This document shows, piece by piece, positions 3,341-42,107 of a DNA stretch of 43,066 nucleotides; the first letter of the stretch is position 1; each line of letters opens with the position of its first letter. The position numbers and the translations under genes were made by a program. The stretch covers positions 1-43,066 of the forward strand of contig JAPOYD010000017.1 of assembly GCA_026706735.1 (NCBI GenBank), given 5' to 3'. The DNA is from Nitrospinota bacterium. Its GTDB lineage: Bacteria; UBA8248. The notes beneath the pieces were generated by a model that did no database searches, was not told where the DNA came from, and saw nothing but the letters and a program-made list of their open reading frames with translations.

Positions 3341-5656
3341 ATGCGTGGTGCGGCGAAGGTTTTGGCCTGCGCCGTTTTGGCCTTCCTGTTTCTTGTTGCT
3401 GTTTCTCATGAGGCGATAGGGCAGTCGGCTTCACCGGCCATCACGGTACGGGCTATTGAAGTTAAGGGGAATCGCCGGGTCGATCGTTCCACGGTTCTTT
3501 TTTACGTTCGGCTGAAAGAGGAGCAAAACTACACCAACACAGAATTGGTCAAGCAAATCCGCGCGGATGTCCGAGCCATATACAAACTGGGATTTTTCCG
3601 GGATGTGAAAGTTCGGGTAGAGTCTCTTGAAGGGGGGCTCCGCGTAATATATCAACTCAGCGAAAAACCCACGATCAACCAGCTCGAAATCATCGGAAAC
3701 AGCAACCTGGACCTCGAGGAAATCCGCGATCGCATGACGGTGAAGGTTCAGACTATCGTCAACGAATCCATCCTTAAAGAAACTGTCCGAGATATCCGAA
3801 AACTATATCAGGAAAGCGGCTATTATTTCGCGAGCGTAGAAGCTGTTCTGAAAGAAAGTGGCCAGAACACGGTGGCCGTTACGTTCGTAATAGATGAGGG
3901 TGAAAAGGTAAGCATCGGTGGAATCAATTTTGAAGGCAACGAAAATGTCTCAAAAAGGGATTTGCTCAAAGCCATAGAAACCAGCGAAATGGGCATTTTC
4001 TCATTTTTTACGGGTTCTGGGATCTTTGACGAAGATGAACTGCAAAGGGATTTGGTACGGATTCGCTTATTGTATGAGAGTCGCGGATACGCAAAAGTTC
4101 AGGTTGGGCAGCCCGTTATTCGAGAGGAGCGAGAAAGAGGCCGGATATACATAACAATACCCATTAGCGAAGGTTTGCGTTACAGAATCGCGAAAATTGA
4201 TATACGCGGTGGAGAGGATGTTATCCCCCAGGAAGAGATCAGAAGGAAGTTGCATCTTTTTGTTGGCGATGTTTTCAATAAAACCCGCTTACTCTCCGAT
4301 GTGCAAGCGATAACGAATCAATTTTCGAACCGTGGCTATGCGTTTGCAGATGTCAATAGTTTCACGAAAACAGACGACAAGAAGAAGACGGTCGACGTTA
4401 TTGTGCGAATCAATAAAGGGCGTAGAGTATACATCGGAAAAGTGGGGGTGAAAGGCAACACCCGCACTCGTGAGAATGTAATTCGACGGGATGTCCGGGT
4501 TATAGAGGGGTCTCTCTACAGCAAGAGAGGATTGGATTTAACGCGTCAGCGTCTCGTCCGTAAGAATTATTTCGAAACGGTGAAAGTCGTTGAAAAACGG
4601 CGTCCTGACAGTGATGAAATACTCGACATCGAGATTGAGGTAAAGGAGAAACCGACCGGCTCAATAACGGGCGGCATCGGTCTGAACAGCGACGAGGGCG
4701 TTTACGGGCAAGGTGAATTAAGAGAGTCGAATTTATTCGGTAAGGGTTTGGTTGCTTCAATTTTCACCAGAATTTCTTCCGAGCGTTTTGATTTGGTGAC
4801 GGAATATTTTGATCCCAATTTCCGGGACTCAGGATACTCGCTTGGGGGCAGCCTGTTTTTTGTTGATCAGGAATATGACACTTTTGATAACCAAAAAAAG
4901 GGTGGACGAATAACGGTTGGCAAGGAATTTCAGGATTTCCTGAGGGGTTTCCTCTCTTATGAGATTGCGGAATCGGAAATCAGTAACGTTTCCGACACGG
5001 CGATAACCACGATTCTCGAGCAGGAAGGAGAAACTTTTCTCGAAAGCAGCATCATTCCAAGGCTGATCTACGATAGCTTGAACAGGCCAATTTTCCCGAC
5101 GGATGGCACGTACTGGAGTATCGCCTCCACGATCTCTACTTCTCTATTGGGCGGAAACGTCGACGTACTCACAGCAGAAGCGGAATTCAGGCAATACTAT
5201 AACATCGGGGAGCGTTTCCGGATCCGCGTTTTGCGGGATTTGGTTTTGAGTTTGAGGGGCAATGTCCGCTACGTTGACTCACTCAAGGGCGTAGTGCCTG
5301 CGTTCCGTCGTTTGTACGCCACCAGAAGGTACACCGTTCGAGGTTTCACTTCCAGCGACCTGGGTCCGAAGGATATGCAGGGAGAAGCCATAGGTGGATT
5401 CTCCGCCGCTCTCGCCTCTGTTGAATTGACGCATCCTTTCATCGGCCCGACTCAAGTCGCGGTTTTCTTTGATATGGGGAACATCTGGGATGAGGATAAT
5501 GCGTTCGATGTCGGGGAATTGCGATACGGCGCCGGAATCGGCTTGCGCATCGTGACGCCAATCGGTCCCATGCGGCTCGATATCGGATACAAGCTGGACA
5601 GAAAAGAGAACGAGCGCAGGAGGGAAGCGCACTTGGGAATCGGGGCTGCTTTTTAG
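3341..5656 (+). CDS. bamA: Outer membrane protein assembly factor BamA
   Basis: Signal peptide MRGAAKVLACAVLAFLFLVAV, POTRA repeats (IEVKGNRRVDRSTV, GNSNLDLEEIRDRM, INFEGNENVSKRDLL, GVKGNTRTRENVIRRDVRV), C-terminal beta-barrel with VRGF and terminal Phe. ORF is open from 3272. Confidence 0.92.
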   Translation: MRGAAKVLACAVLAFLFLVAVSHEAIGQSASPAITVRAIEVKGNRRVDRSTVLFYVRLKEEQNYTNTELVKQIRADVRAIYKLGFFRDVKVRVESLEGGLRVIYQLSEKPTINQLEIIGNSNLDLEEIRDRMTVKVQTIVNESILKETVRDIRKLYQESGYYFASVEAVLKESGQNTVAVTFVIDEGEKVSIGGINFEGNENVSKRDLLKAIETSEMGIFSFFTGSGIFDEDELQRDLVRIRLLYESRGYAKVQVGQPVIREERERGRIYITIPISEGLRYRIAKIDIRGGEDVIPQEEIRRKLHLFVGDVFNKTRLLSDVQAITNQFSNRGYAFADVNSFTKTDDKKKTVDVIVRINKGRRVYIGKVGVKGNTRTRENVIRRDVRVIEGSLYSKRGLDLTRQRLVRKNYFETVKVVEKRRPDSDEILDIEIEVKEKPTGSITGGIGLNSDEGVYGQGELRESNLFGKGLVASIFTRISSERFDLVTEYFDPNFRDSGYSLGGSLFFVDQEYDTFDNQKKGGRITVGKEFQDFLRGFLSYEIAESEISNVSDTAITTILEQEGETFLESSIIPRLIYDSLNRPIFPTDGTYWSIASTISTSLLGGNVDVLTAEAEFRQYYNIGERFRIRVLRDLVLSLRGNVRYVDSLKGVVPAFRRLYATRRYTVRGFTSSDLGPKDMQGEAIGGFSAALASVELTHPFIGPTQVAVFFDMGNIWDEDNAFDVGELRYGAGIGLRIVTPIGPMRLDIGYKLDRKENERRREAHLGIGAAF

Positions 5657-35550: not shown

Positions 35551-36231
35551 TTATTCTCTTTTAATCAATATGTTGTTGTACACTAGGGCCGCCGCCACGC
35601 CGCCGATGATGGGCCCTATCCAGTAGACGAGGTGGTTGATGCCGTCGAAACCGCCTCCGGCCAGGGCTGGGCCGAATGTGCGCGCCGGATTCATGGATGC
35701 TCCCGTGAGTGGACCTCCCATCAAAATATCCGCGGCGATGGTGAGGCCGATCGCGAAGCCGCCCACGTCGGGGTGTCTGTCATCCACGGCGGAGCCCCAG
35801 ATAGCGGTGACGAGGAAGAACGTGAGGATGATCTCGATCAGAATCCCCATGCCGAAGCTCACGTCACTTGCCAGGGTCGGTGTTCCCAGATTCACCTTTT
35901 GCCAGACGTCGGCGTCGAAGATGATTCTGAGCAAGATGCCGGCCACGGTTCCGCCCACGAGTTGGCTGATGATGTAGGAAACGCCTGTGCCGCCGTCTGT
36001 CTTCTTGGTCACCATAAAGCCGATAGTCACGGCTGGATTGAAATGACCTCCCGAGACGTGTCCCATCGCGGAAATCATGACCGAGAGGATCAGCCCATGG
36101 GCCAGGGCGATGCCGATGAGGCCCACGGCTCCACCCGTTTTCTGGTTCAAGATGATGGCGCCCGCACCGATGAAGCACAGCGCAAACGTGCCGATGGCTT
36201 CCGCTACGCAGGCCCTTCCTGTAGGACTCAT
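35551..36231 (-). CDS. MIP family aquaporin
   Basis: Two NPA boxes: GHVSGGHFNPAVTIG and LTGASMNPARTFGPAL; six-TM pattern. Confidence 0.93.
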   Translation of the reverse strand: MSPTGRACVAEAIGTFALCFIGAGAIILNQKTGGAVGLIGIALAHGLILSVMISAMGHVSGGHFNPAVTIGFMVTKKTDGGTGVSYIISQLVGGTVAGILLRIIFDADVWQKVNLGTPTLASDVSFGMGILIEIILTFFLVTAIWGSAVDDRHPDVGGFAIGLTIAADILMGGPLTGASMNPARTFGPALAGGGFDGINHLVYWIGPIIGGVAAALVYNNILIKRE

Positions 36232-36348: not shown

Positions 36349-37308
36349 TCATGATGAATGCACCACGTTTTGAGGAGCACCAGAGAGTGCGGCAGCAACA
36401 TTTTCCACCGACATCAAAAGGCCCGCTTCGGTCACCTCGGGCGTGATGCCCGCATTGTGCGGAGAGAGCACCACGTTGTTCAGCTTTCCGAGGGGATGGT
36501 TCGGGGGCAGAGGCTCCTGATCGAATACGTCGAGACCAGCTGCAGCCAGTGCTCCATCTTCCAAAGCCGATATGAGCGCCGCTTCATCTACTATGGGTCC
36601 ACGGGCGGTGTTCACCAAAATTGTGTTTGGACCCATTTGGGAGAACGCCTCGGCGCCGACCATGCCGATTGTGTCCGCCGATTGCCGTACGTGTATCGAG
36701 ACGACATCGGCCCGTTCATACAAAGTGTTCAAATCGACGAACTCGAGCCCTACTTCCGCAGCGAAATCATTGTCCGGATGAAATGTCCAGGCGATGAGCT
36801 TCATTCCGACCCCGGCGGCGATGCGGGCCGTCTGGCGGCCGATGGCGCCAAGGCCGATGAGGCCGAGCGTTTTTCCGTTCAATTGCGTCATCTGTCCCCG
36901 AGGCCACTCGCCCGCCCTCATGGCGGAATCGTTTCCGGGTATCTGGCGCGCCGCCGCCATCATCAGGGCCAGGGTGTGTTCGGCCACGGAAACGGCGGCC
37001 ACGCCAGGTGTGTTCGATACGATGACGCCTGCGTTCTCGGCTGCCTTCAAATCGACGTGGTCCGTCCCCGTGCCCCAGATCGAAAGTACCTTGAGATCGC
37101 TGCAATTCGAGAAAAAATCCGCGTCGAACTTGCAAAAAGCCCGGATGTTGATGATTCCATCGGCCCCGGAAACGCGTCTCAGCAGTTCTTCGGACGTTTG
37201 CGGGTTTGAGGTATGGATTTCCGCATCCCCGATCTCCCGTAGTCGGGTTTCAGCGGTGCTGCCCATAAAAACGGAAGGGTAGTCATCTGGCACGGCGATT
37301 CGGTTCAC
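36349..37308 (-). CDS. D-2-hydroxyacid dehydrogenase family protein
   Basis: KTLGLIGLGAIGRQTARIAAGVGMKLIAW; ILVNTARGPIVDEAALISALEDGALAAAGLDVFDQEPLPPNHPL; VVLSPHNAGITPE. ORF open to 37377; internal GTG start (VNRIAVPDD) likely near 37308. Confidence 0.88.
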   Translation of the reverse strand: MNRIAVPDDYPSVFMGSTAETRLREIGDAEIHTSNPQTSEELLRRVSGADGIINIRAFCKFDADFFSNCSDLKVLSIWGTGTDHVDLKAAENAGVIVSNTPGVAAVSVAEHTLALMMAAARQIPGNDSAMRAGEWPRGQMTQLNGKTLGLIGLGAIGRQTARIAAGVGMKLIAWTFHPDNDFAAEVGLEFVDLNTLYERADVVSIHVRQSADTIGMVGAEAFSQMGPNTILVNTARGPIVDEAALISALEDGALAAAGLDVFDQEPLPPNHPLGKLNNVVLSPHNAGITPEVTEAGLLMSVENVAAALSGAPQNVVHSS

Positions 37309-37427
37309 GAAATAGCCCCTTTTGATCACGAGAAAACGAGTGCTCTGGCGGTTCTCTTGCACCGCCCTTGTGTGCATAATAGCGCTTTTCTTCTGCCATT
37401 CTTATGACACCAAAGGAGACAAGACAA

Positions 37428-37982
37428 GTGGAACCTCTCGATCCGCGTAAAGACAGCGCCGTTCCCGGTGAGCGCGCCATCGACAAGCCCGAACTGCCTA
37501 CGCAGGGCTATGCCTTCACCATGTCCGCCGACACCGAAACGATAGAGGGAAAGGGCCAACTCAAGCTGGGGACGCACAGGCATTTCGAGGTGTATTGCGA
37601 TGAGCCGCCCCGTATCGGCGGAGAGGATTCCTACCCCCAGCCGCTTTGCTACATTGCTATGGGAGTGGGGTTCTGACTCCTCACCCAGCTTGCGCGGTAC
37701 GCGCACATGATGAAAGTGTCCTTCACGCACGCCAGGGTACACGTGGATTTCGATTATTTTTTAAGTGGCTCTGTTCTCAAGGGCACGGTAAATTCCGGCT
37801 GCAACGAGGTTCGCACGCACTTTGAGGTGGAATCCGATGAACCGGCGGAGAAAATACTGGCGGTCATCAAGAATGCGAAGCAAGGATGCTTCGCCGAACA
37901 AATGGTGACGGCCGCCGTTCCGCTGAAAAGCGCCGTGAACTTGAATGGCGAATCGGTCTCGTTGAGCGGAATTACGGCATGA
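37428..37982 (+). CDS. OsmC-family protein, probable selenoprotein with in-frame TGA (Sec) at 37674-37676
   Basis: ORFs 37404-37676 and 37707-37982 share one frame; only TGA at 37674 interrupts. Joined text: ...GTHRHFEVYCDEPPRIGGEDSYPQPLCYIAMGVGF[U]LLTQLARYAHMMKVSFTHARVHVDFDYFLSGSVLKGTVNSGCNEVRTHFEVESDEPAEKILAVIKNAKQGCFAEQMV..., OsmC-like with U at the first conserved Cys and GC at the second. SD AAAGGAG at 37412-37418 before GTG 37428 (ATG 37404 also in frame). Confidence 0.8.
37677..37710 (+). other. Candidate bacterial SECIS hairpin
   Basis: Downstream of TGA: UGCGC-GGUAC-GCGCA (37691-37705), 5-bp stem, loop with G at positions 1-2 and a U; apical loop begins 19 nt after the UGA. UGA is followed by C. 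Confidence 0.55.
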
Positions 37983-41220: not shown

Positions 41221-41912
41221 TTATTGTTTCCGTACCAAAACGATATTGAAATTACCCAACTCGTACGTTTTTCCCCAGGAAACCTTTTTGAGCGCTATGA
41301 TCAAAGAGGGTCTGGCGCGTTCATGGTCGCCCAATCTCGGGTCGCCCTGAAAATATAGTTGCGTCACCAGGGGCTGGTAATCGGGATGGCGGATGTAAAA
41401 ATGAATGTGTGACGGCCTCGCCCAGAAGCCGAAGCCGTAACGTCCCGGATGCACGGTTTCGAACTGATACAGGCCGCGCCTTGTGGTGCGCATACGCGCT
41501 CTGTAGAGATAATTCTCCTTCTCGTCCATGCCGTGTGGTAGCTGCCGCTGTCATCCGCCTGCCATACGTCGATAGTCGCGCCCTCGAGCGTTTTCTGGGT
41601 GTCGTGCCCATAGACGCGGCCGCGGATGACCATCGGCGTGCCCGGTGCGTCTTTGGGCATCAAATAGCCGCGATAAGGAGCTCCTTCTTTGTAATAGGGT
41701 CCCATGGAGTCCGAAGCGGTCGGCCTACGCGCATTGGACGGCGCCTCATCCGGTTTTTTGCCTTGCGCGATCAGGAATTTTCCGAATTCCCCCAACTCTC
41801 CATAGGCGGGCGTGGGGGCGAGGGTTTCCCGAAGCGCGAAGGCCCCCGTGCCGAGGGCGGTCAGGCCGAGCAGGGAGTTTTTCAGCAGTTCCCGTCTGTT
41901 CCATTTTCTCAT
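41221..41912 (-). pseudogene. Intradiol ring-cleavage dioxygenase with Tat-like signal, interrupted by a frameshift near 41527-41535
   Basis: N-part MRKWNRRELLKNSLLGLTALGTGAFALRE...MVIRGRVYGHDTQKTLEGATIDVWQADDSGSYH in one frame; C-part DEKENYLYRARMRTTRRGLYQFETVHPGRYGFGFWARPSHIHFYIRHPDYQPLVTQLYFQGDP in another. Confidence 0.8.
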
Positions 41913-42107
41913 GGCGAAATCCCCGGCGGCGGGGCGAAGCTTGTCAGGGAAGATTACCATTTCAGGGCAGGAAGGTTCCAGCGCTGGAAATTCACACGCC
42001 ATATACCTGCCAGGGCGCTACCTCACCGCTGGCGCGAGAGTGCTTGAAAATACAGGCTTTCCGGCGCACTCACTGCCCCGACGCGCCTCATTGCGGAGAA
42101 AACGAAA

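Follow-up and report, generated by a model that had tools for sequence, protein, structure and literature searches.

An OsmC-like selenoprotein of the UxxT family predicted from an in-frame TGA in a Nitrospinota genome

Gene organization of the locus

The window analyzed here is the entire stretch of 43,066 nucleotides represented by contig JAPOYD010000017.1 of a Nitrospinota bacterium (assembly GCA_026706735.1; 3.79 Mb, 94% complete). On the forward strand, positions 37404-37982 comprise a single frame that is open throughout except for a TGA at 37674-37676. As recognized in a preliminary description of this DNA, this codon is all that parts two short ORFs in the same frame, one of 90 aa (37404-37676) and the other of 91 aa (37707-37982). 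The TGA corresponds to residue 91, counted from 37404, and is followed by codons for Leu-Leu-Thr, so that a selenocysteine (Sec) in this position would yield the motif ULLT (UxxT). Further downstream, TGC at 37887-37889 encodes Cys162, the predicted resolving cysteine, in the sequence KQGCFAEQ. Residue numbers (Sec91, Cys162) are counted from ATG 37404; Sec91 is Sec83 when counted from GTG 37428.

The preliminary description placed the coding start at ATG 37404, and this part of it is not upheld: inspection of the sequence reveals no Shine-Dalgarno sequence before this ATG, and the most likely initiation codon is GTG 37428 instead. The start is placed there because a Shine-Dalgarno-like AAAGGAG (37412-37418, forward strand), which is kept in the relatives from the same genus, lies 9 nt upstream, and because equivalent start codons are found in other relatives, namely, ATG behind a purine-rich site in locus L064 and TTG in L065. 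The revised coding sequence of the predicted OsmC-like selenoprotein spans 37428-37982 on the forward strand (184 aa, Sec83) and ends with a TGA stop at 37980-37982; the N-terminal extension at 37404-37427 is probably 5' untranslated.

The divergent neighbor, on the reverse strand (36349-37377), encodes a D-isomer 2-hydroxyacid dehydrogenase (PF02826/PF00389), and a gene of this family adjoins the OsmC gene in close relatives as well as in L066 and L068. Also on the reverse strand is a gene for a MIP-family channel (35551-36231, PF00230) that is found near the orthologous gene in several genera (L059-L065, L068, L075 and L132). A plasmid search gave no match. Elsewhere in the window, an intradiol-type dioxygenase (41221-42002, reverse strand) is present in two pieces, both matching PF00775, with an apparent frameshift between them; homologous sequence occurs at this site in relatives.

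Family assignment and predicted fold

Comparison with profiles bears out the proposal that the joined ORFs make up one full-length OsmC-like protein. The fused sequence scores 181 bits against the NCBIfam model NF041052, OsmC-related (seleno)protein (OsmC_like_Se, cut-off 95), compared with 55.6 and 103.8 bits for the halves alone, and its match to PF02566, OsmC (48 bits), spans the TGA. In an AlphaFold model built with 28 relatives (pLDDT 89.5), Sec is located in the long central helix (70-92 in the model numbering), and the second Cys lies between two helices further along the chain. The best PDB fold matches of this predicted model are OsmC/Ohr proteins, with approximately 9-20% identity.

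OsmC-like selenoproteins are, as the preliminary description stated, an established bacterial class, which was reported in 2005 in a Sargasso Sea study (PMC1088965) and is now covered by the NCBI model; a family with the UxxT motif appears in later lists (PMC9312934, PMC13188914). Judging from its sequence, the product of the locus is a member of this already described UxxT family (NF041052). The fold, the UxxT motif and a bacterial SECIS after the UGA are all common to the family and the locus protein, and nothing marks the latter as a new type; compared with the family elsewhere, this member comes from the Nitrospinota/Tectomicrobia lineage, in which there are several copies per genome.

The TGA occupies the column of the catalytic Cys, as had been proposed: Cys is found there in PDB 3cje, an OsmC-like protein, and in three distant OsmC homologs from the same genome (L026, L027 and L028), which have TGC or TGT at the Sec column. 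Like the locus protein, 3cje has xxT after the reactive position (CxxT) and GCFxEQ around the second Cys, with Cys aligned opposite U91 and GCFLEQ opposite GC162FAEQ, but it is of the Cys type and the overall similarity is far lower (40 bits).

Conservation of the TGA and of the flanking sequence

The occurrence of TGA at this position in other genomes, which was suggested as a check, is general among the relatives: TGA is present at the same codon in all 125 places aligned by tblastn and in 163 of 163 members of a wider relative set. These sets have members in common, and some loci represent one gene drawn from two collections; one further match in the wider search, not counted among the 163, is the C-terminal fragment of L132, which is frameshifted. 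L132 (positions ~4244-4330) is an OsmC selenoprotein relative on a low-coverage metagenome contig, with the frameshift 28 codons past the Sec-TGA. After the removal of duplicates, the 125 places amount to 95 distinct sequences. The relatives come from Nitrospinota/Tectomicrobia, Betaproteobacteria and one representative of Dehalococcoidia, although the taxon labels of a few records look wrong.

All 95 distinct relatives contain the ULLT motif, and the invariant residues are U91, L92, L93, T94, Q95, R98, A100, K104 and C162, the last being the second redox Cys to which the preliminary description had drawn attention. No close Cys form of the family was found among the 163 copies, which adds to the interest of the relative set. 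In comparisons of genus members, dN/dS is well below 1 both before and after the TGA, which indicates purifying selection on the 5' and 3' parts alike and agrees with the earlier impression of coding-type sequence on either side. Decay of the 3' half, raised as a possible refutation, is not seen in close relatives, all of which keep the TGA, with purifying selection past it.

A SECIS-like hairpin downstream of the TGA

A bacterial SECIS (bSECIS)-like hairpin, tgcgcg-GTA-cgcgca, is located at 37691-37705 on the forward strand, with the apical loop at 37697-37699, 20 nt past the TGA; the preliminary description makes no mention of it. The bSECIS model specifies a loop of 3-9 nt, a stem of 4-16 bp, a G within the first two loop positions and a location 16-37 nt past the UGA (PMC13188914); the 6 bp stem, the GTA loop and the 20 nt distance all fall within these ranges. 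An equally strong hairpin is found by chance after approximately 3.4% of the TGAs in the window (53/1565), so that finding one in a single sequence carries little weight, and single-sequence minimum-free-energy folding of the 51 nt past the TGA detects no extra stability compared with shuffled sequences (z -0.57). Given this chance rate and the unremarkable single-sequence fold, the case for a SECIS rests on comparison. By their coordinates, the other TGA-interrupted frames of the window that are accompanied by a hairpin lie inside ordinary genes in other frames.

The hairpin is present in 95 of the 95 distinct relatives, with the 20 nt spacing in 94. The codons that form the stem and loop are near-frozen (GCG for A97 in 79/79, CGG for R98 in 95/95 and TAC for Y99 in 93/94), whereas for R24, G73 and C162, residues that are likewise conserved, the codons are mixed. 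Codons 97 and 100 form the pairs GCG/GCG, GGG/GCC, GAG/GCT and AAG/GCT, with all the changes in codon 100 silent. The covariation score is 0.365, compared with 0.107 for shuffled alignments (0 of 500 shuffles as high) and 0.066 or less in slid registers; it was obtained for 20 sequences picked to include variants, a choice that inflates the score but leaves the pairing pattern unaffected. Among all 78 distinct 48-mers, pairing is found in 447 of 468 cells, whereas shuffles average 416 and do not exceed 429. Conservation and covariation together are strong comparative evidence for the predicted hairpin, and the relatives provide an unusually clean view of a bacterial SECIS, with silent compensatory changes within coding sequence. 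An Rfam search of the locus with a permissive threshold yielded nothing relevant, only one sub-threshold mir-60 match on the opposite strand.

Selenocysteine machinery

The preliminary description recommended a search for selA, selB, selC and selD in the same genome, and all were found: a tRNA-Sec with a UCA anticodon, SelA (578 bits, contig C22), SelB (383 bits, encoded near selA on C22) and a Sec-type SelD (334 bits), in which the sequence GGUGSK contains Sec. Among the genomes of the phylum that were searched, selA is present in 11 of the 11 near-complete ones and was missed only in three assemblies that are 67-79% complete. A SelD-like paralog (L025, 2176-3231; L017 on G000:C4), which scores 89.7 bits against selD, below the cut-off, is encoded by the gene that immediately follows the second OsmC selenoprotein copy. 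The literature searched contained no account of a Nitrospinota selenoproteome.

Interpretation of the in-frame TGA

Taken together, these observations very probably identify the gene as encoding an OsmC-fold UxxT selenoprotein, in which UGA 37674 is predicted to be read as Sec by SelB and tRNA-Sec under the direction of the hairpin. The computational checks that the preliminary description put forward as possible refutations were all carried out, and none spoke against this reading. Three other readings have to be considered. As a standard stop, the interrupting codon could be a nonsense mutation, or a miscalled TGC or TGT, ahead of a decaying 3' half, and one relative (L132) indeed carries a frameshift past the TGA. 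However, with the same codon conserved in 163 of 163 relatives, with dN/dS indicative of selection on either side and with a covarying hairpin, a pseudogene appears extremely improbable, and because the TGA recurs in genomes assembled independently of one another, a sequencing error is implausible as well.

The availability of an ATG just past the TGA (37707), where Met is kept in most relatives, would also be compatible with two separate short proteins, but we give this reading very little credence: the preliminary description is correct in that the C-terminal ORF lacks a good Shine-Dalgarno sequence of its own (none precedes 37707), the residues LLTQ.ARYA encoded between the TGA and this ATG are among the most conserved, and both halves are needed for the OsmC fold. 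Decoding of the TGA as another amino acid (e.g., Trp), through an altered code or generic read-through, would account for no more than the frame being open once the TGA counts as a residue. Such decoding is hardly to be expected in a genome with complete Sec machinery, for a gene that has a SECIS-like hairpin and uses TGA as its own ordinary stop at 37980, and whose distant homologs have Cys in this column, never Trp. Routine annotation would break this gene in two or overlook it, with the result that too few redox proteins are credited to these uncultivated bacteria.

Predicted mechanism and comparison with Ohr

In Ohr, the central-helix Cys is peroxidatic, a second Cys resolves it, and lipoylated proteins re-reduce the enzyme (PMC5962072). 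The locus protein shares with the Ohr/OsmC Cys peroxidases, such as XfOhr, the OsmC fold, the reactive residue in the central helix and the downstream redox Cys, but has Sec where these have Cys. In the predicted mechanism, SelB and tRNA-Sec would decode UGA 37674, and the hairpin at 37691-37705 would direct the insertion, a role suggested by its conservation. Sec would thereby be placed in the central helix, in the position of the reactive thiol of the Cys-type OsmC/Ohr proteins, and would most likely act as a redox selenolate that attacks an oxidized or electrophilic substrate, perhaps a hydroperoxide. By analogy with Ohr, Cys162 would resolve the oxidized Sec91 with the formation of a selenenylsulfide, which a cellular thiol donor would presumably re-reduce.

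Nevertheless, the classical catalytic triad of Ohr is not evident in the predicted protein. In Xylella Ohr, Glu51 is located 10 residues before the reactive Cys61 (PMC5962072); with ungapped spacing relative to the XfOhr numbering, position -10 from Sec is occupied by Leu81. None of the Ohr profiles matches the locus protein above the cut-off (e.g., 14 bits against 240 for NF052637). With no triad Glu at the expected spacing and no match to the Ohr models, the protein is not considered an Ohr; given the absence of this Glu, peroxidase activity should not be assumed.

Further Sec-bearing OsmC clades and copy number

Two additional, more distant clades of OsmC homologs in related genomes also contain TGA at the catalytic Cys column. 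In L029 (G000:C103:2294-2788) and its six orthologs (L139-L144), which are 67-95% identical, TGA is found at the catalytic Cys column within the motif UGLYTLL or UGLLTLL, and the second Cys is in the sequence ANCPIHN. The clade has a strong bSECIS-like hairpin, cgctgct-GGG-agcagcg, 17 nt past the TGA; L029 scores 57.9 bits against NF041052, below the cut-off. In L145, L146 and L147, TGA is part of the motif UMM or UMT (the UMM..VLEFC clade), and the stem of the hairpin at 19 nt varies between copies with the pairing kept. The Cys sisters of this clade (L153, L154 and L156) have TGT or TGC at the column and a stem of 4 bp at most. Comparison of these sequences suggests that the lineage probably uses Sec in three OsmC clades, namely, UxxT, UGLYT/ANCPIHN and UMM..VLEFC. 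The latter two were not found in the published selenoprotein family lists examined and may be undescribed Sec subfamilies. The difference between L145-L147 and their Cys sisters likely represents a Cys/Sec exchange; if so, the exchange would be traceable, and the two further clades, one of which is accompanied by Cys-type sisters from related genomes, would make it possible to study such exchange within one fold.

The OsmC_like_Se family is represented in all 18 genomes of the phylum that were searched (searches at the phylum and class levels gave the same 18 genomes), and each copy above the cut-off contains exactly one TGA. The three copies in the host genome are all of the Sec type and group in different clades, each of which includes orthologs from other genera, so that the duplications are old. 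Across the class, including G015, the number of copies per genome ranges from 1 to 11, with fragments counted. Adjacent pairs of OsmC_like_Se genes are found in G001:C69, G002:C177, G010:C4 and G015:C120, all of the Sec type.
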